Source: Lachnospiraceae bacterium (GTDB taxonomy: Bacteria; Bacillota; Clostridia; Lachnospirales; Lachnospiraceae). From it: a stretch of 64,000 nucleotides of DNA. Under the pieces are notes generated by a model that was not told the DNA's origin, searched no databases, and saw only the letters and a program-made list of their open reading frames with translations. Below are positions 4,163-35,268 of the stretch, in pieces; the first letter of the stretch is position 1, and every line of letters starts with the position of its first letter. Both the position numbers and the translations under genes were made by a program. The stretch is taken from positions 1 to 64,000 of the forward strand of contig CAJTDN010000011.1 in NCBI GenBank assembly GCA_910574865.1. The letters run 5' to 3'.

Positions 4163-4648
4163 CTACCGCTTCGCCAACGCGTCCTGCACGCCCAGTATGA
4201 GCATGCCCGCGCAGTCCGTGCAGCCGTCCGGTATCCATTCCTGCGGAATGCCGTTCACCGCCGTGGGGATTCCGTTCTCATCCAGCTCGACCTCGATTTC
4301 ATTAATCCCGTCCGGCCCCATGTTCTGCAAGTTTTGGATGATTCCCGTCACCTTGGCCGGCCACATTCTCTGAAACGCGTCCGGATCCGTCAACGTATAC
4401 TCGGAATCCATGTCATCGAGAATGATGGCTCTGATGTTTTCGCCATCCATCGTCACGTCCAGGTCAATTCCTCTTTTATGCCCATTTGCCTCGGTATGAT
4501 ATTCACCATGTAGCGGTTCGTTTTTGTTACCGCCGCAGCCTATAAGTGCCATCACAGATATCAGCACGAGCAACAATGCCATCATCTTTCGCCAAGTCCT
4601 TCTCGACTTGTTATAATCATCATACTTATTTTTCATTCTTTTTTTCAT
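4163..4648 (-). CDS. Small lipoprotein
   Basis: The 161-residue product has a long basic start, a hydrophobic signal segment (MMALLLVLISVMALIG) and a lipobox ending at Cys38 (ALIGCGG), so it should be lipidated and held on the outer face of the membrane. The mature domain (about 120 residues, EYHTEANGHKRGIDLDVTMD onward) recalls small FMN-binding-like extracytoplasmic domains, but I see no firm family signature. Its start overlaps the end of the membrane GH3 gene by 23 bases, so the two are translated together, and it probably assists that enzyme at the surface. Confidence 0.7.
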   Translation of the reverse strand: MKKRMKNKYDDYNKSRRTWRKMMALLLVLISVMALIGCGGNKNEPLHGEYHTEANGHKRGIDLDVTMDGENIRAIILDDMDSEYTLTDPDAFQRMWPAKVTGIIQNLQNMGPDGINEIEVELDENGIPTAVNGIPQEWIPDGCTDCAGMLILGVQDALAKR

Positions 4649-7439
4649 TCTTCTTTTCCTTCTTTCCTCGAAATCCCGGTATCACCAGTACCACCAAGCT
4701 AATCAGCATTCCCAACACGAGCGCCGCGTTCGCCGCGCCGACCACCAGTTTCCAGGTGTCGCTCTCGTGAGCCGTCATGCCGATGCCGGAGGTATTTGCA
4801 TAGATATAAAGCTGCCTGTGTGCCGACTCCTGCAACATGCGAATGCCGTAATCCGTCCCGTACAATTTTTCCGAAGTGGTGGCCGTCATCGGCGCCAGCC
4901 ACATGTCCAGCCCGGCCAACACGCCGGTATCCGGCACGTAAATGTCAAAGTCCATCGCCGCGTCCGTAATCATGCGGCCCATCGTGCCCCATTCGCCCCT
5001 GGCCACGTCGGTAATCATTGCCTTGGAAGCCCCGGTCCAGCCGGTTCCAAGGTAATTATAGCTTGTCATGTACCCGGTACAATCCGCTTCCTTCGTCACG
5101 ATTTCAAACGGTTTCAAATAAATCTGGCGCAACGCCTGCTCGTTCGTCCACGTATGTACGCCGCTTCGGTTCGTCTCCTGGTCGTTGACCACCATGTGCT
5201 TCAAATATACCGCGATTCCCTTCTCCTGCAGGCCGCGGATTTCCTCCGCCGCAATCTTGCCGGAAAGTAACGGATCCTCGGAATAAGCCTCGAAGCACCT
5301 TCCATTAAACGGGGAACGGTGGATGTTGACCGTCATGCCGTACATTCCCGTCACGCCGTTTGACAGGCACTCGTCCCCGTAAACCAGACCCATCTCGTGT
5401 GACAACTCCGTGTTCCAGGTCGCGCCGCGCACCGTCGAGCCGACGTACTGGTTGGCCGTCTTGTCGGAAGTCAAATCGTGAAGGCCCTCCGCGCCGTCCA
5501 TGTCGATTGCCGCCGACTTGTTGATGGACAATACCGCCGGATTGCTCCAGCCACAAGTGCCGTATAATTTTCTCAACTCATCTATGGACATTTGTTCAAT
5601 CAACTCCTGCCACAGCGGGTCGTCAAACTCGAGGCCCACCATGTCCGATATCTGGAGGCCGTTGTCCGCCCCGGTCACGGCCGGCTCCGCCTGCGGAAGG
5701 TTATCCAAATCATACTCCCACCCCGAAGTGTCATTCGTCATCAACGCCACCGTCTCGGCGGAAGCCGCCGCGTCCATCGAGGTCTCCCGGGAGGTCGGCA
5801 TCGTCCCCGCCCAGTCCGAACGGGAAACATAGGTAATCTGCGCGTCCTCGCCAAACGTTCCGTCACCTGCCGTCACGTCGTCAAAGCGGTTTACGGCCTC
5901 CACCACGTCCGTGGAACGTTTTCCCTGGTTCGCGTCATTGTAAACGACCGTGTCGTCCACCGTGTAAATAATTTCGTCCACCTTGGTACCGTCTCCATTT
6001 ACCTTTACATTGTGGGAATCCGTCTGCAGCCGCAATGCATAGTCGCCGCTGCCAAGGACGTAGCACTGCGCGTTGCGGTAATCATAGGCCGCCATGTCGT
6101 CCACGTTCAAGGTCAGCGTGACCGTCTCTGACGCGCCCGGCTCAAGCAGGCTTGTCTTGGCAAACGCTCCCAAATCAATTGCCGATTTCTCGATTCCTTC
6201 CTCCGGGTCATACGGAGAAGCATAGTACAATTGCACCACGTCTTTTCCAGCCACGTCGCCGGTATTCGTCACCTTGACGTCCACGCTGATGGTGCCGCCA
6301 ACCTCGCCCAGCTTCGTCTCGCCCACTTCCCAGTCAAAGGTCGTGTAAGAAAGGCCGTAACCAAACGGGAACTGCACCGTCTCATCATAATCAATAAACC
6401 CGTCCGCTGCCGCCGTCTCATAATAACGGTAGCCCACGTAAATGCCCTCCTGATAATACACGTATTTGTTATTTCCCTCAAAATTGCCGTAAGTATAATC
6501 ACCAAAATTGTAGTAGGACGGCGCGCTTTCCAGCGCATACGCATAGGTATCCGCCAAATGCCCGGACGGATTGACGTCGCCCGCCAAAATCTTTCCGAAG
6601 GAACCACACCCCTTCGAGCCCGACATTCCCACCCAGAACGCCGCGTCCACCGCCTCGTCGTCAATAAATCCCGTTTCCATCGGCATCGCGATGTTTAAAA
6701 CAACGATGACCGTCTCATAATTCTGCTCGATGTAGGAAAGAAGCTCCTGCTCCACGCTCTGCAGCTCCAGGTAATGCTTTCCGGCATCGCCGCCCGTGTA
6801 GCCGTCCATCTCCATCACCGCGTCGGAACCCTCGCCGCCTGCACGTCCAATCACCAGCACCGCCACGTCGGAATAGCTTTCTGAATACTCAAGCACATTC
6901 TGTCCCTCATATTCGTACTCCTCGTACTGTGAAACCGGCTGCTCCAGGATGCTGTGATCGGCTCCCGACATATTGGCCATGCCGCCCTCCTGGTCGCTGC
7001 GCTCCTGATAATTGTCCTCGTAAAACTTCCACAGTCCGGGATTCACCTCGAACCCGGCATCCTCAAGGCCCTGCTTAAAGTTCACGTTCAAGTCCTGCTT
7101 GAACCAGCTCGACGCGGAACCCGACCCCTGGTACAACGTCTGGTAGGACGCGTTGCCAAACAAGTTAATCTTCGTCCCGGCCGGAAGCGGCAGCGCCGCG
7201 TCCCCGGCATTTTTCAGCATGACGATGCCCTCGTCGCCCAGCTCCTCGTTAAATTTACTGGCGGCCGCGAGCGCCTCGTCCGCCGACATCTCGTAAACGG
7301 ACGTGTCCGTGTCACGGAAATACAACTTGATCATCGTCAGGTATTTCGCCACCAGCACGTCTGCCACGATGGTCGCAATCAGTAGTACGGCAATGATTGC
7401 CAAACCGATGTAACCCTTTTTCTTGCCTTTTCCATTCAT
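4626..7439 (-). CDS. Membrane-anchored permuted GH3 glycosidase
   Basis: This 937-residue enzyme has one membrane helix near residues 9-32 and another near 897-920, with a Lys/Glu tail inside. Between them the GH3 domains are in inverted order: the sandwich domain first (GIVMLKNAGDAALPLPAG, GSGSASSW), then a fibronectin-like domain, then the barrel (GAEGLHDL, NIHRSPFNGRCFEAYSEDP, LKHMVVNDQE). This order is known from some clostridial beta-glucosidases such as the Butyrivibrio type. The expected nucleophile is the Asp of RMITDAAMD near residue 825; the usual Trp after it is Ala here, so activity or substrate may differ. Both termini tethered to the membrane is unusual. Confidence 0.85.
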   Translation of the reverse strand: MNGKGKKKGYIGLAIIAVLLIATIVADVLVAKYLTMIKLYFRDTDTSVYEMSADEALAAASKFNEELGDEGIVMLKNAGDAALPLPAGTKINLFGNASYQTLYQGSGSASSWFKQDLNVNFKQGLEDAGFEVNPGLWKFYEDNYQERSDQEGGMANMSGADHSILEQPVSQYEEYEYEGQNVLEYSESYSDVAVLVIGRAGGEGSDAVMEMDGYTGGDAGKHYLELQSVEQELLSYIEQNYETVIVVLNIAMPMETGFIDDEAVDAAFWVGMSGSKGCGSFGKILAGDVNPSGHLADTYAYALESAPSYYNFGDYTYGNFEGNNKYVYYQEGIYVGYRYYETAAADGFIDYDETVQFPFGYGLSYTTFDWEVGETKLGEVGGTISVDVKVTNTGDVAGKDVVQLYYASPYDPEEGIEKSAIDLGAFAKTSLLEPGASETVTLTLNVDDMAAYDYRNAQCYVLGSGDYALRLQTDSHNVKVNGDGTKVDEIIYTVDDTVVYNDANQGKRSTDVVEAVNRFDDVTAGDGTFGEDAQITYVSRSDWAGTMPTSRETSMDAAASAETVALMTNDTSGWEYDLDNLPQAEPAVTGADNGLQISDMVGLEFDDPLWQELIEQMSIDELRKLYGTCGWSNPAVLSINKSAAIDMDGAEGLHDLTSDKTANQYVGSTVRGATWNTELSHEMGLVYGDECLSNGVTGMYGMTVNIHRSPFNGRCFEAYSEDPLLSGKIAAEEIRGLQEKGIAVYLKHMVVNDQETNRSGVHTWTNEQALRQIYLKPFEIVTKEADCTGYMTSYNYLGTGWTGASKAMITDVARGEWGTMGRMITDAAMDFDIYVPDTGVLAGLDMWLAPMTATTSEKLYGTDYGIRMLQESAHRQLYIYANTSGIGMTAHESDTWKLVVGAANAALVLGMLISLVVLVIPGFRGKKEKKNEKKNEK

Positions 7440-29580: not shown

Positions 29581-30162
29581 TTATGTTGACGCCATCCCGG
29601 CCAAAATGCTGTATGCCAAAATACACCACGGTTTTCCCAATATAATGATTGTCGTAAATTTACGAGTACTCATTTTCGTAAGCCCGGTGAAATAACAGAA
29701 AAAATCATCCGGGAACAGAGGCAATACCATGATAAGAAATAAAAAAAACGTGTACGACTTACTTTTCGCCGCCCATGAGGACCATCTTTCATAGCGTTTT
29801 CCCGGAAACATCTTGTCGACGATTCCCTTCCCCAGTTTCTTCGCAATCAGAAAGGCAATGATGGAACCCGCCGAAATACCGATGTAATTACACCAGAACC
29901 CGCCCAGCCAGCCGAACATGAGCGCGCCGACCACGCAGCCCAAAAATCCCGGCAGAACCGGTATGACCACCTGCATCGCCTGAATCGTCACCAGTATAAG
30001 CGGTGCCAGCAGGCCAAACCCCACAATGTAACCTTGCAACGTTTCCACGGAATCAAACTTCCCATCCAAATACGCCTTGAACAGAACGGCACAAACGGCC
30101 AAGCACAAAATCAGCAATACCGCGGTCAGCCATTTTTTCCATATATCCACCCGGTTTATCAT
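29581..30162 (-). CDS. TVP38/TMEM64 (VTT-domain) membrane protein
   Basis: The 193-residue protein has about five membrane helices and the VTT/SNARE-associated core: GFLGCVVGALMFGWLGGFWC, then SAGSIIAFLIAKKLGKGIVD, then LPLFPDDFFCYFTGLTKMS. Members of this family are thought to move lipids between leaflets, which fits the phospholipid genes after it. The start is taken at MINRVDIWKK (30162), after GGAAGGAAAG; the upstream ATG lacks a site. It is driven by the promoter at 30218-30246. Confidence 0.82.
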   Translation of the reverse strand: MINRVDIWKKWLTAVLLILCLAVCAVLFKAYLDGKFDSVETLQGYIVGFGLLAPLILVTIQAMQVVIPVLPGFLGCVVGALMFGWLGGFWCNYIGISAGSIIAFLIAKKLGKGIVDKMFPGKRYERWSSWAAKSKSYTFFLFLIMVLPLFPDDFFCYFTGLTKMSTRKFTTIIILGKPWCILAYSILAGMAST

Positions 30163-30217
30163 CTTTTCTTCTTTCCTTCCAAAAGCGGCATACGCCAATC
30201 CTTTCTCATCCTATTGA

Positions 30218-30467: not shown

Positions 30468-30490
30468 TCGCAGAGTGCGGGGGTCTGCGA
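30468..30490 (+). repeat. Left inverted recombination site (candidate IRL)
   Basis: Arms TCGCAGA and TCTGCGA flank the core GTGCGGGGG. The reverse complement of this 23-base site matches 32049-32071 at 22 positions. Two short inverted arms around a non-symmetric core is the design of a tyrosine-recombinase crossover site. Confidence 0.7.
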
Positions 30491-30775
30491 AACAAGTAAG
30501 CCATATTTCTTACGCTCATATACTATATCGGCATCTTTTTTCAGAAGTTAATCTTTTTTGAATAAATTTTTTCTATAGTATAACGCCCAATGGTAGTCGT
30601 CTCGTGAAAGAAAGTGGCTGGAAATACAAGGAAAACGGTAAATGTGGTCACTTTTGTGGTCAAAATCTTCGGAGAACGGAACCTCCTGACAACTATGGGT
30701 ACACGGAACGTTTGCCACAAAAACGGGGCAGGAATTTTCCGTAAAAATATAGGATACAAAAGGGAGAAAAATGAC

Positions 30776-32014
30776 ATGGCACGACATGGAGAAAACATCA
30801 GGGAACGCACGGATGGCCGATGGGAAGGACGATACAAGGTTTACAGCGATGAGAAGGGGCGGCACTTGTATCGTTCCGTTTATGGTAATACATACGCCGT
30901 GGTAAAAGAGAAACTCATTGCCGCGAAGCTGACCCTGAAAAAAAATCTTTTAACCGGGAGTACGGAAGATACCGGTGGCAAAAGTGCTGCAAGGGCATGC
31001 GACGGTATCTTGTTTTCCGAGGTGGCCATGGAGTGGCTGGTGGAAAAACTGGAAAAATGCAAATACTCCACCTATATAAAATATGAAACGGTTTACAGAA
31101 AACATCTGTCGGATTTTCTCGGCGGACACCCCTTATCGGAAATGGAATCAAAAATCGGCTTGGCAGGGGACGGAAACATCCTGCCCGAGATTTCTGACCA
31201 CTTATTTTCGGACAACATTTCAGAAAGCCTGCAAAAGAGCATTTGCTGCGTCGCGAACCAAATCTTTCGCCATGCAAATCAGAAGTATGGCCTGCAAATT
31301 CCATTTTTAAAACGGCCTGCCATGAAAACAAAGAGACGGGCGATAGAGACGTTTACCAATTCGGAACGGCTACGACTGTTTTCCACGATTTACAACAGCC
31401 CTGACAAGTACGGCATCGCGACGGTTTTCTGCCTGCACACGGGACTTCGAATCGGAGAATTGTGCTCGCTTCGCTGGACAGATTTCAACTTCAAGGAAAT
31501 GACACTGGCCGTGGAGCGCACGGTACAAAGAATCGCGTTCAAGAACAGCGCTGCGGAACCTGTCTTTGGAGAGGCTGAACATGGATGGACAATTTCGGCA
31601 AAGGACAAACGGCAAAAGACCTTCCTGATGGAAACAGAACCCAAAAGCGAAAGTTCAAGGCGGACGATTCCCCTCCCAGAAAAAATCATGGGATTGCTTG
31701 ATAACCTGAACAAGGACGAGCCATACATATTTGGCGGAAAACATCCTTTGGAACCACGGACGTTACAATACCGCTTCAAAAAGATGCTCGAGAAAACAAA
31801 AATAAGCCATCGGAAATTCCATATGTTGCGCCACACATTTGCCACGAGCTGCATCGAAAGCGGGATGGACGTGAAGTCGCTTTGCGAAATACTCGGACAT
31901 TCCGATGTGAAAATCACCATGAACCGCTATGTGCACCCAACCATGGATTACAAACGGAAACACTTGGAAACGCTGGCCGGTTTTTATGGTCAGATTTGTG
32001 GTCAGACGGCATGA
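30776..32014 (+). CDS. Tyrosine site-specific recombinase
   Basis: The 412-residue protein has an N-terminal AP2-like arm-binding domain (RWEGRYKVYSDEKGRHLYRS), a SAM-like core-binding domain (YSTYIKYETVYRKHLSDFLG) and a catalytic domain with Arg in HTGLRIGELC, His-x-x-Arg at about 349-352 (HMLRH), His in LGHSDVKI and Tyr near 385 (NRYVH). The start is the ATG after GGGAG, and upstream codons lack a site. No excisionase, relaxase or phage gene accompanies it, so it is a lone recombinase. Inverted crossover-like sites bracket it. Confidence 0.9.
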   Translation: MARHGENIRERTDGRWEGRYKVYSDEKGRHLYRSVYGNTYAVVKEKLIAAKLTLKKNLLTGSTEDTGGKSAARACDGILFSEVAMEWLVEKLEKCKYSTYIKYETVYRKHLSDFLGGHPLSEMESKIGLAGDGNILPEISDHLFSDNISESLQKSICCVANQIFRHANQKYGLQIPFLKRPAMKTKRRAIETFTNSERLRLFSTIYNSPDKYGIATVFCLHTGLRIGELCSLRWTDFNFKEMTLAVERTVQRIAFKNSAAEPVFGEAEHGWTISAKDKRQKTFLMETEPKSESSRRTIPLPEKIMGLLDNLNKDEPYIFGGKHPLEPRTLQYRFKKMLEKTKISHRKFHMLRHTFATSCIESGMDVKSLCEILGHSDVKITMNRYVHPTMDYKRKHLETLAGFYGQICGQTA

Positions 32015-32048
32015 CGGGCGGCGAAAACAAAGGGCTTCGGGGAGATTT

Positions 32049-32071
32049 TCGCAGACCCCCGCATTCTGCGA
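32049..32071 (-). repeat. Right inverted recombination site (candidate IRR)
   Basis: The same 7-base arms surround the core CCCCCGCAT, the reverse complement of the left core with one change. It begins 35 bases after the recombinase stop and ends 184 bases before the CsrA-domain gene. Confidence 0.7.
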
Positions 32072-32255
32072 AACACGCGGTGGCGCACGGTGTCCTTCCG
32101 GCGGAACGCCCCATGGAACATATTGTAACATCCAGTTTACTTTCATGGAATACTTCGCCGGATGGTGGTAGGCATTTGCGACAAATATGACAGCGTGAAC
32201 GGCCACGTATTTTGCTCATTAAAAAGGAAAAATGGAAATAGGGAGGTTTCTGGAC

Positions 32256-32744
32256 ATGCTTTCATTACAGATGAAATCAGGGGATTACGTCACCATAGGG
32301 AACCAGGTGGTGGTGCAGGTGTTCAAGGAGTCGGGGCCGCAGTTTCGCATCTCCATCAAGGCGCCGAGGGAAATATCCATCGTGCGCGGGAAGGTGCTGG
32401 AACGCGACGGGGAGATGCGGCCAGAAGGGCTGCTGGATCGAGGGCCGAAACGTTCACCGTCAGACCAGGTTCGCTACGCGCGGTATCTTCAAAAACTGGA
32501 AAAGCGGCTGGAAGCCTATCGGGATGGACAAAAATTGTTGTCGGAAACATTGGGCCGGATGGATGAACTGCTGGACGGTTCCCGGAAGTCTCTGAAGCGG
32601 AAGGACTTGGAAGACATGCGGGAACAGATTAAGCGGCTTGCGTGTCTCTGGGAAAACGTTGGGGGAGAAATGAAAGGCATAGGCGTGGAAAAAGCAAATG
32701 CAGAAAAAGCAGATGCGGGAGCGGGAAACGCGGAGAGCGCGTGA
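32256..32744 (+). CDS. csrA: CsrA-domain protein with C-terminal helical extension
   Basis: Residues 1-52 match the RNA-binding protein CsrA: MLSLQMKSGDYVTIGNQ, then VQVFKESGPQF, then RISIKAPREISIVRGKVLE. CsrA is normally about 60-75 residues, but this product has 162, the rest being charged helices (QVRYARYLQKLEKRLEAYRD; KRKDLEDMREQIKRLACLWE) able to form a coiled coil. The start is the ATG after GGGAGG; an earlier ATG would add eight residues before the conserved beginning. In Bacillus, CsrA represses flagellin translation and FliW counteracts it. The flagellin gene follows 214 bases downstream; no FliW gene is in the window. Confidence 0.82.
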   Translation: MLSLQMKSGDYVTIGNQVVVQVFKESGPQFRISIKAPREISIVRGKVLERDGEMRPEGLLDRGPKRSPSDQVRYARYLQKLEKRLEAYRDGQKLLSETLGRMDELLDGSRKSLKRKDLEDMREQIKRLACLWENVGGEMKGIGVEKANAEKADAGAGNAESA

Positions 32745-32958: not shown

Positions 32959-35268
32959 ATGAGAATTCAACACAATATTGCAGCATTAAACTCTTATCGT
33001 AACTTGACGACCAACAACAGTGTGGTTTCCAAGAACCTGGAAAAACTGTCCTCCGGTTACAGAATCAATCGTGCGGGCGATGACGCGGCAGGACTGGCCA
33101 TTTCCGAAAAAATGCGCGCACAGATTACCGGCTTGAAGACCGCGCAGAAGAACGCCAACGACGGTATTTCCCTGGTGCAGACGGCTGAGGGAGCCATGAC
33201 GGAAATCCACTCCATGCTCAACCGTATGGTGGAACTGGCCGACCAGTCTGCCAACGGGACGTATGCCGATGAGGTGGACCGTGAGAACTTGCAAAAGGAA
33301 ATCGTGTCATTAAAGGACGAGATTAACCGTATCGCGGACAGCACGAACTTCAACGGGATCAACTTGCTGGACGGGTCGTTGGATGCTGAGGCAACCACCA
33401 ACATTGGTGATGCTAGCGCAATTAGTAATATTACGACAAAAGAATTCTCTGCAAATGGAACGGCTGCAGCTTTTGAGGCAAAATATATCACAAATCGTCC
33501 ACCGGTATCAACGGCACAGACAAACGCGTCGTTCACGGTCAGCTTTGATGACATTAATGTAGAAGCACTGGCATCAGGGACAAATAAGGTTACGGTGCAA
33601 GTCGGAGATGCTAAATTGACTGTCGCAAATGCTGACCAGACAGCTATGACCGGGGCAACAATAGCGACTAAAATTCTTACAGCAGGAAAAACACAAGGCA
33701 ACGCGGTTAAATGTGTAGAAGGAACCAATAATACAGTTGCTACCAAGGTTGCTAAGGGTGATACCGCCTCATGGGACGCAGAAGCAACGACAGACGGTGG
33801 TGCTTTTGTCAAGATTGATGGACATTGGTGGGAAATGTCAGCAGGAGCGGCGGCTAATGAGATTACGTTTACACAAGTAGATTATTCTGGTGAAACAGGT
33901 ACGGTCATAAACCCAGATTATGCTGTTTCTGTTAGTAAGGATGCTGCAGGTGGTAAAGTCACAGGTACGACCAACTGGCAGGTACAGAATCCAACAACCG
34001 GTACTGGTGTTGGTTCCAGTCATCAGGCACAAGTAAGCGTCGACATTGATTTCAGCAAGCTGAAAGTGGGAGATACGTTGACAGTTGGTGATAAAAACTA
34101 TGAGTTCTTTTATGGGCAAGGAACGGCACCAACAGCAGCAGATGCTAAGACAACAATAATCAATTTGTCCAGCATTATTACTACGGAATCTGACTTGGCA
34201 GATGCAGAAAAACAGGAAAAGGCAATTGCATCAATTGTAAAACAAATGGGTGCTACTGTGTCATCTTCGAATGGAACACTGACACTCACAGACGCAAAGA
34301 ACGATACTTGGTCCGTAGGTAACGGAAGTGTCAGCAATGGTGTTGGAACGTTGACATTCCAGTCACTGTCTAATTACAAAGGTGATGCTGATGGTGCAGC
34401 TGCTGCAGATAAAGCTTATATTGGCGGCGTACAGACAAACGGAGTCTGCGATATGAAAACGGAAGGTAGCGTGATGAAGCAATTCTATGCTACCAGTAAA
34501 GAAGCCGCAGCCAGCGTTTCCTTTGATGTGGATGTGACGAAACTGAAAGAAGGCGATACCGTTTCAATTAATGGGACAACTTTTGAATTTACGGACGGAA
34601 CATATGTTTCCGACAAGTCTCATTATGCTATTGATTTGTCGGATTTGGGAATTTCTGGCGGTATAGCCTCCAGCCAGACCGGTACCGTAATGGATAGGCT
34701 AAAAACGGCTATCAGCAATAATTTAAAATATGGCAGTACGGCTATGTTTGATGTTGCGGTTGATGGAAATAAAATAACATTGACTTCAAATGACAACAGT
34801 GGAACCGGAATGATTAAAGAGAATCGTATCGCTGCTGAAATCGAATTGCCACAGTCCGCATATGCCGGAAGAGCCCTGACGTTGCAGATTGGTGATACGG
34901 CAGATGATTTCAACCAGTTGAACGTGAATGTAAAAGATATGCACACGAAGGCGATGGGTATTGCCGACATCAATATTTCAAACCAGTCTGATGCCGCGAA
35001 GGCGGTTGATGCTATCAAGAGTGCGATTAATTATGTATCCTCCACCCGTGGTGACTTAGGTGCCATCCAGAACCGTTTGGAGCATACCATCAACAACCTG
35101 AGTGTGACGACGGAGAACATGACCGCTGCAGAAAGCCGTATCCGTGACGTTGACATGGCAGAGGAAATGATGGCTTACACGAAGAACAACATCCTCGTCC
35201 AGGCTTCCCAGGCCATGCTCGCGCAGGCGAACCAGATTCCGCAGGGCGTGTTGCAGTTGCTTCAATAA
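32959..35268 (+). CDS. hag: Flagellin with large variable insert
   Basis: The 769-residue protein has the conserved ends of flagellin: N-terminal [20 protein letters not shown] with [20 protein letters not shown], and C-terminal [20 protein letters not shown]. Bacillus Hag is about 300 residues, so some 450 form an inserted surface region (about 145-640). That region has repeated beta units, for example [20 protein letters not shown] and [20 protein letters not shown], and is more AT-rich than its flanks, suggesting an exchanged or fast-changing domain. It polymerises into the flagellar filament. Expression is probably set by the leader and the CsrA-domain protein just upstream. Confidence 0.93.

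Follow-up and report, generated by a model that had tools for sequence, protein, structure and literature searches.

A 1.6-kb segment upstream of a csrA-domain gene and a flagellin gene of a Lachnospiraceae bacterium very probably forms a self-contained invertible promoter cassette, which would be flipped by its own tyrosine recombinase to switch the csrA-flagellin genes. The segment lies within the 64,000-nucleotide stretch of DNA that was analysed (the window), and its features are collected in Table 1. Judged by its sequence, the cassette is a real promoter inverton of the tyrosine-recombinase kind and probably a working one. Inverted repeats with a matching core surround the segment, an intact tyrosine recombinase is linked to the sites, and a promoter, recognised by its sequence motif, reads out across one of them. 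Both orientations were found in relatives, and the window copy is known from one assembly in one orientation. The serine recombinase with a resolvase domain that marks the Hin/Gin invertases is not encoded here, the window enzyme being a member of Phage_integrase.

Table 1. Features of the window cassette and its flanks, and related loci with a TnpB-like gene
Feature	Position or loci	Strand	Basis
VTT-domain gene of the other flank, adjoining phospholipid genes; considered a bystander rather than the target	29581..30198	-	domain match, promoter scan
Left crossover site, TCGCAGA-GTGCGGGGG-TCTGCGA	30468..30490	+	sequence, inverted-repeat search, site scan
Sigma28-type promoter, TTAA-N15-GCCGATAT, facing outward, away from csrA/flagellin	30525..30551	-	motif
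Direct repeat GTCA-N8-GTCA, 5' end, candidate arm-type recombinase binding site	30647..30662	+	pattern count in family
Tyrosine recombinase, 412 aa, within the segment	30776..32014	+	ORF, Pfam, alignment
Direct repeat GTCA-N8-GTCA, 3' end, in the terminal part of the recombinase gene	31989..32004	+	pattern count in family
Right crossover site, inverted copy, 22/23	32049..32071	-	sequence, inverted-repeat search, site scan
Long CsrA-domain protein (162 aa), whose gene presumably heads the switched operon	32256..32744	+	ORF, domain match, alignment
Flagellin, 769 aa, presumed target	32959..35268	+	ORF, domain match, alignment
TnpB-like loci	L092, L093, L095, L096, L099, L100, L101, L106, L107, L108, L110, L130, L169
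TnpB-like loci, genus copies	G002_5587 (L050), G002_5626 (L045), G006_C35 (L051)

The sequence-only reading had described two 23-bp sites that are inverted copies of each other at 22 of 23 bases. This proved exact on re-reading and in an inverted-repeat search, where the pair was the top entry among the 13 inverted repeats of a 7-kb region (25 nt, 24/25 or 96% complementary, with 1554 nt separating the arms). The 7-base arms TCGCAGA and TCTGCGA, the 9-base core and the opposite directions of the cores were likewise confirmed in the sequence; the sole mismatch of the sites is the first core base, and the window cores agree at 8/9. That a complete tyrosine recombinase is the only gene between the sites also stood, since the list of open reading frames and a Pfam Phage_integrase match (4.7e-28) agree, and no second convincing gene was found there, judged from the reading frames. 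The recombinase frame is intact, and the protein retains R225, K290, H349, R352, H375 and Y385, which we take to be the catalytic residues.

On the plus strand of the window, the pattern TCGNAGA-N9-TCTNCGA, which is its own reverse complement, matches only the two sites. A scan of the 5.33-Mb genome for further copies, suggested along with the initial reading, gave six perfect-arm sites forming three inverted pairs, each with a recombinase homologue inside, and a fourth inverted pair with TCGTAGA arms. Because 14 fixed bases are expected by chance only about 0.02 times in a genome of this size (by arithmetic), the site pairs exceed chance. The genome thus holds three cassettes besides that of the window. 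One on C2, whose recombinase is 63% identical to that of the window, precedes another csrA-domain gene and a flagellin gene; a second C2 cassette lies upstream of an FHA-domain gene, and the C1 cassette upstream of a glycosyltransferase gene.

The wider family was sampled by a scan of public genomes with a recombinase alignment, which gave at least 80 loci, 572 of the 592 retrieved stretches being relatives. The named relatives, among the matches listed, are mostly from Lachnospiraceae and other Clostridia. Eighty scan loci among the matches listed and 18 from the genus of the window made up a pool of 98, which was reduced to 95 by removal of L138 (the same locus as G002_5587) and of L124 and L125 (the same DNA as L123). 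For the search for inverted pairs, L138 and G005_C8 (a long inverted duplication) were excluded and 72 of 96 loci were kept, or 70 without L124 and L125; 62 of these passed the arm score, the arms being too diverged for scoring in the other eight. An inverted pair above the cut-off was missing at 24/96 loci, several of them at contig ends, which counts against the family reading, and no site pair was found for the G002_5587 copy in a genome of three contigs. Outside the 98 stand two weaker genus matches (L031 and L032, with no pair) and two stretches that are probably decayed family members: one matches the recombinase but has an internal stop (G000:C12:24769-25728), and the other is a short fragment next to a single degenerate site (G000:C13:12430-12723). 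At G005:C8 (L048/L027), a family recombinase is flanked by a 618-bp inverted duplication (579/618 identical) with genes that look surface-related by eye; this duplication is possibly a larger, gene-swapping inversion.

The arms of the sites are conserved in the family, and the cores vary from cassette to cassette. Among the 62 scored cassettes there are 57 distinct cores, yet the two ends of one cassette have identical cores in 56, and the mean number of shared core bases is 8.9 of 9 between the ends of one cassette against 3.4 between different cassettes. Since this set was selected by its inverted-repeat score, a test on the arms alone is the fairer one. In that test, 52 of the 95 loci have a site with at most two mismatches on both sides, and the inverted cores match at 9/9 in 47, at 8/9 in four and at 3/9 in one. 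The exception is L092, where the arms-only scan picked a different place than the scoring by arm and repeat. A core of its own, matched at both ends of each copy, is the pattern to be expected of recombination between the ends of that copy.

The promoter of the window cassette lies just inside the left site, between that site and the recombinase start, and its motif is presumably the SigD/sigma28-type consensus. The GCCGATAT element is common in the genome (242 occurrences on both strands versus 129 for the reversed control), and a sigma factor of the FliA family is encoded there. As assembled, the promoter points away from csrA and flagellin, a state that we interpret as OFF. A flip would place its -10 element 242 bp upstream of the csrA start (computed), that gene having a second in-frame ATG at 32232. 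A search of the interval from the recombinase stop to the right site of the window copy revealed no terminator-like site, and read-through could therefore express csrA and flagellin in the present state. Outward sigma28-type motifs occur in 6 of the 62 cassettes, including all four that precede a long csrA (4/4 of the tyrosine-type long-csrA loci found), and inward ones in 0/62. In the interval separating the left site from the recombinase start, a sigma-A-like promoter scoring at least 10/12 was found facing outward in 45/62 cassettes, leaving 17/62 below this score, and facing inward in 11/62. The mean best scores were 10.2 outward, 8.9 inward and 8.7 for shuffled sequence.

A further feature of the cassette ends is a direct repeat of GTCA. 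Inside the 5' end, GTCA-N5-10-GTCA is present on the recombinase strand in 48 of the 62 family members and on the opposite strand in none, with 0.6 expected; the corresponding numbers for the 3' end are 38/62, 0 and about 0.5. Both ends carry the repeat in 31/62 cassettes. Among interior windows, the pattern occurs in 3/380. On this pattern count, the repeats are candidate arm-type binding sites for the integrase-like enzyme.

Inversion itself was assessed by comparing related loci. One genome, Lachnospiraceae B85_10_CF_BP, has two loci (L114 and L116) whose cassettes stand in opposite directions as found, the flanks being alike over 2.5 kb (up to 92%) on one side and over at least the 120 bp compared on the other. 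In silico flipping of one cassette lifts the identity from 192/274 to 244/263 at the left junction and from 176/274 to 229/267 at the right. In both loci, the outer half-site is TCGT on the target side and TCGC on the other, and because these differing half-sites stay with their flanks, the strand exchange is placed inside the site. Since the two recombinases are only about 41% identical to that of the window, this inversion is evidence for the family and not for the window copy. By eye, the target at L114 and L116 looks like a helicase-type protein of about 757 aa rather than a surface gene.

A second pair in opposite orientation comes from two genomes (G002_227 and G010_C12), where an in silico flip raises the identity from 112/315 to 147/274 and from 120/293 to 152/276; this gain is smaller because the outer flanks near the sites have diverged. 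Beside homologous operons, moreover, the recombinase has its 3' side towards the operon at some loci (e.g. G002_5587, L092 and L100) and its 5' side at others (e.g. L096 and L101). The same orientation was found for the G000/G008 pairs at two loci and for the four cassettes preceding a long csrA. The comparison of orientation in related genomes, which had been proposed as a check, thus revealed opposite states in other family members, but the four long-csrA cassettes are all alike. The proposed Hin-like inversion layout with a tyrosine recombinase accordingly holds at the level of the family, where opposite orientations break at these sites. Contig ends were also considered as a sign of mixed orientation; this was dropped, as the ends near cassettes, as read, miss the repeats.

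The same data bear on two readings of the segment as a mobile unit. In one of them, the segment would be a small transposon that has inverted repeats as its termini, uses the tyrosine recombinase as its transposase and has come to lie beside the flagellin gene by chance. Several cassettes per genome at unrelated loci would agree with this, as would the L123-L125 copy on near-identical DNA in three genera, by which cassettes must spread somehow. However, transposon termini should be alike among copies, and here the termini vary between copies and agree within each, which is not a transposon pattern. A target duplication, the finding named at the outset as speaking for a transposed unit, is absent in 55/62 cassettes with 54.2 expected by chance, and the outward promoters of the cassettes argue in the same direction. 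The transposon was rejected on its missing target duplication and unshared termini, and we regard it as quite improbable. A single-gene integrative element bounded by attL and attR and excising as a circle, for which the integrase-type recombinase and the inner direct repeats resembling arm sites might be quoted, would be expected to have its cores in direct orientation. A direct-repeat core match of at least eight bases was found in 0 of the 52 arms-only loci, against 51 with inverted cores matching at eight or nine, so this reading was rejected too and is given hardly any weight. As to L123, L124 and L125, from Butyricicoccus, Blautia and Agathobaculum, these are the same cassette with an identical core in near-identical DNA and in a single orientation, probably carried by a transferable element.

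The sequence-only reading had named either the csrA and flagellin genes or the phospholipid operon as the target of the invertible promoter. The former are now the likelier, because a long csrA follows a tyrosine-type cassette at four loci, with a flagellin gene in view at three and the contig of the fourth ending there. There are five full flagellins in the genome, which share 86-99% identity at their N and C ends and 22-79% in their middles; for the middle region of the window flagellin, the identity with the other four is 22-26%. Two more Flagellin_N matches are a 58-residue frame and a protein that lies among flagellar genes and looks hook-associated. A long CsrA-domain gene stands before three of the five full flagellins, and all three loci have a switch, which is of the tyrosine type in the window and on C2 and of the serine type on C16. 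The usual short csrA beside fliW is also present in the genome. At an E value of 1e-15 the long CsrA protein was found in one of 299 family genomes, the window's own, and at 1e-8 in 3 of 12 genus genomes. A low-confidence structure model of this protein (mean pLDDT 60.8) has strands followed by two long helices.

The recombinase at C16 carries a Resolvase domain, and the 26-bp inverted repeats of this locus (4639-4664 and 4764-4789 of L079) flank a sigma28-type promoter that points away. Together with L086 and L088, this locus (L079:3878-4789) represents Resolvase-type switches in which a segment of about 100 bp with a sigma28-type promoter precedes a long csrA. G008:C12 shares the serine-type layout of C16, and G011:C211 has the repeats and promoter as at C16, with a recombinase that was read partly and by eye. 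G011:C6 and G011:C302 are of the tyrosine type. In all, seven long-csrA loci have an identified switch; flagellin is in view at five, and at the other two, G011:C302 and C211, the contig stops within csrA or close to it. A locus with a shorter csrA, L089 (G011:C313), has the end of another tyrosine recombinase upstream, as judged by eye. Its inverted sites are palindromic, with 6-bp cores that are reverse complements of each other, and its sigma28-type motif points away.

Could the meaningful target of a real switch instead be the left phospholipid/VTT operon? The sigma28-type promoter faces that side at present, and 269 bp separate the left site from the start of the VTT reading frame. Yet the left genes have a promoter-like site of their own (11/12), the frames next to the C2 copy do not include the phospholipid/VTT genes, and at the two G011 copies the first frames on the left are different ones, whereas csrA-flagellin recurs and has unrelated switches elsewhere. 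We consider the left operon a very improbable target. An old switch that is now locked, with persisting sites and an enzyme that no longer inverts them, would be consistent with the promoter pointing away at 7/7 long-csrA loci with an identified switch, the ON state having been seen at none, and with the difference at one of nine bases between the window cores. Against it stand the intact catalytic residues and frame of the recombinase, the near identity of the sites and the occurrence of relatives in both orientations, and a locked switch appears unlikely.

A switchable csrA-flagellin operon invites comparison with known systems. In Salmonella, according to parts of two reports, the promoter of the Hin/fljBA system lies on the inverted segment and its target is a flagellin together with a repressor of the other flagellin (PMC9368917), and Hin is encoded within the segment (PMC5903667). 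The window cassette is similar in its segment-borne promoter, its enclosed recombinase and its presumed target of flagellin plus repressor, the CsrA-domain protein standing where Salmonella has FljA. It differs in its tyrosine recombinase, in its 23-bp sites with variable cores and in a promoter that is divergent from the recombinase. Excerpts of a 2026 report describe csrA-tldR-fliC loci with an upstream hin in Oscillibacter and Flavonifractor, inversions of about 120 bp in Flavonifractor plautii that contain a FliA promoter, and binding of CsrA to the 5'UTR of a different fliC (PMC13418256). Given what these excerpts describe, the serine-type loci L079, L086 and L088, which resemble the csrA-tldR-fliC/hin layout, look like the published kind. 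The window locus, as far as the excerpts go, shares with it a csrA beside a flagellin under an invertible FliA-type promoter. Its switch, unlike that of the published loci, is a tyrosine recombinase enclosed in the segment; its CsrA protein has an extension of about 110 residues, and no tldR stands between csrA and flagellin, where the gap is too small. Hin-driven csrA-tldR-flagellin switches are thus already published, and the tyrosine-recombinase version is a new variant.

Other tyrosine-type switches offer partial parallels. As quoted from a further survey, inverton group 139 of Clostridia is linked to a nearby tyrosine-type recombinase/integrase, and the coordinates of one example give 26-bp repeats (PMC11892184). 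Two quoted examples have about 205-230 bp between the repeats, and this group, likened here by its description alone, may be related to the window family. In the passages quoted from PMC5903667, RecV of Clostridioides difficile is a tyrosine recombinase that inverts regulatory segments, including one for flagella; unlike the window enzyme, it serves several separate genomic segments. A putative fimbrial inverton of Providencia stuartii (844 bp, with 14-bp imperfect repeats) encloses a recombinase frame (same source), as the window cassette does, but it concerns fimbriae. No switch with a tyrosine recombinase inside the segment at a flagellin was found among the papers listed in searches of the open-licence literature.

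How a switched CsrA-domain protein might act is suggested by the flagellin leaders. A GGA-loop hairpin at -35 to -39 is present in 16/16 flagellin leaders from seven genomes with no csrA seen upstream, and base changes in its stem preserve pairing; these leaders are not independent, as their sequences are related, and for one of them (G010_C11) the csrA status was judged from 226 nt upstream only. None of the six csrA-preceded flagellin leaders has the hairpin at this place, and one has a weak hairpin at -16. Shuffled controls contained a GGA-loop hairpin anywhere in 130 nt in 393 of 4400 cases (9%), 142 of them with a stem of at least 6. The long CsrA proteins retain M1, L2, L4 and R44, of which L4 and R44 are presumably RNA-binding positions. 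Taken together, the leaders suggest a logic like that of FljBA, in which the switched CsrA would silence default flagellins and spare its own, and this is supported by the binding of CsrA to another fliC 5'UTR in the excerpts cited above (PMC13418256). The leader hairpin may instead serve the ordinary short CsrA. At L080 (G000:C11:188000-203167), two default flagellins that share the CsrA-type hairpin leader stand in tandem, and a glycosyltransferase-like gene, by eye, lies behind each.

In the mechanism that we propose, the tyrosine recombinase would bind both of the inverted 23-bp core sites, with probable assistance from the GTCA-N8-GTCA repeats near the ends. Strand exchange would presumably take place within the 9-bp core and flip the segment, carrying round the outward sigma28-type promoter beside the recombinase start. 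The flipped promoter, now some 240 bp upstream of the CsrA-domain gene, would drive csrA and the downstream flagellin. The product of this csrA would in turn repress the translation of default flagellins with a CsrA-type hairpin in the leader, and its own flagellin, with a leader lacking the hairpin, would escape. In a population, the outcome would be phase variation of the flagellar antigen.

A different neighbour was observed at other loci of the family. Sixteen of the 95 related loci encode a TnpB/Cas12f-like protein on one side of the recombinase gene, with a start 21-362 bp away from it (Table 1); two of these proteins were tested and both match PF07282. In 14 with a readable C-terminal motif, the scored position, which we take to be the RuvC-III Asp, is K, R, S or P, and because this residue is replaced, the proteins look nuclease-dead (TldR-like). 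In six loci with downstream genes listed, the TnpB-like genes head gene sets that are of the polysaccharide type by eye. These neighbours are therefore candidate phase-variable RNA-guided repressors.

Tentatively, and with somewhat less than even confidence, a modular design may be proposed for gut Clostridia. A self-flipping promoter cassette would be followed by an RNA-based silencer as first gene, a CsrA-domain translational repressor at flagellin loci or a nuclease-dead TnpB/TldR-like protein at polysaccharide loci, and then by the surface antigen, so that mutual exclusion is built into each operon. The flipping part would be exchangeable, with a tyrosine recombinase inside or a serine recombinase beside the segment at sister loci of one genome. 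If the window switch operates in the proposed way, a gut commensal has reassembled the flagellar switch of Salmonella from unrelated components, and has done so at three loci of one genome with two recombinase types that are unrelated to each other. A family of integrase-like recombinases has come to light as well, whose members bring with them inverted sites of their own, candidate arm-type repeats and an outward promoter. Because the core of each copy is matched at both of its ends, such cassettes are recognisable from a single assembly, and phase-variable operons become findable without read data. The family thereby offers a direct means of testing how commensals restrict themselves to a single active flagellin or polysaccharide.
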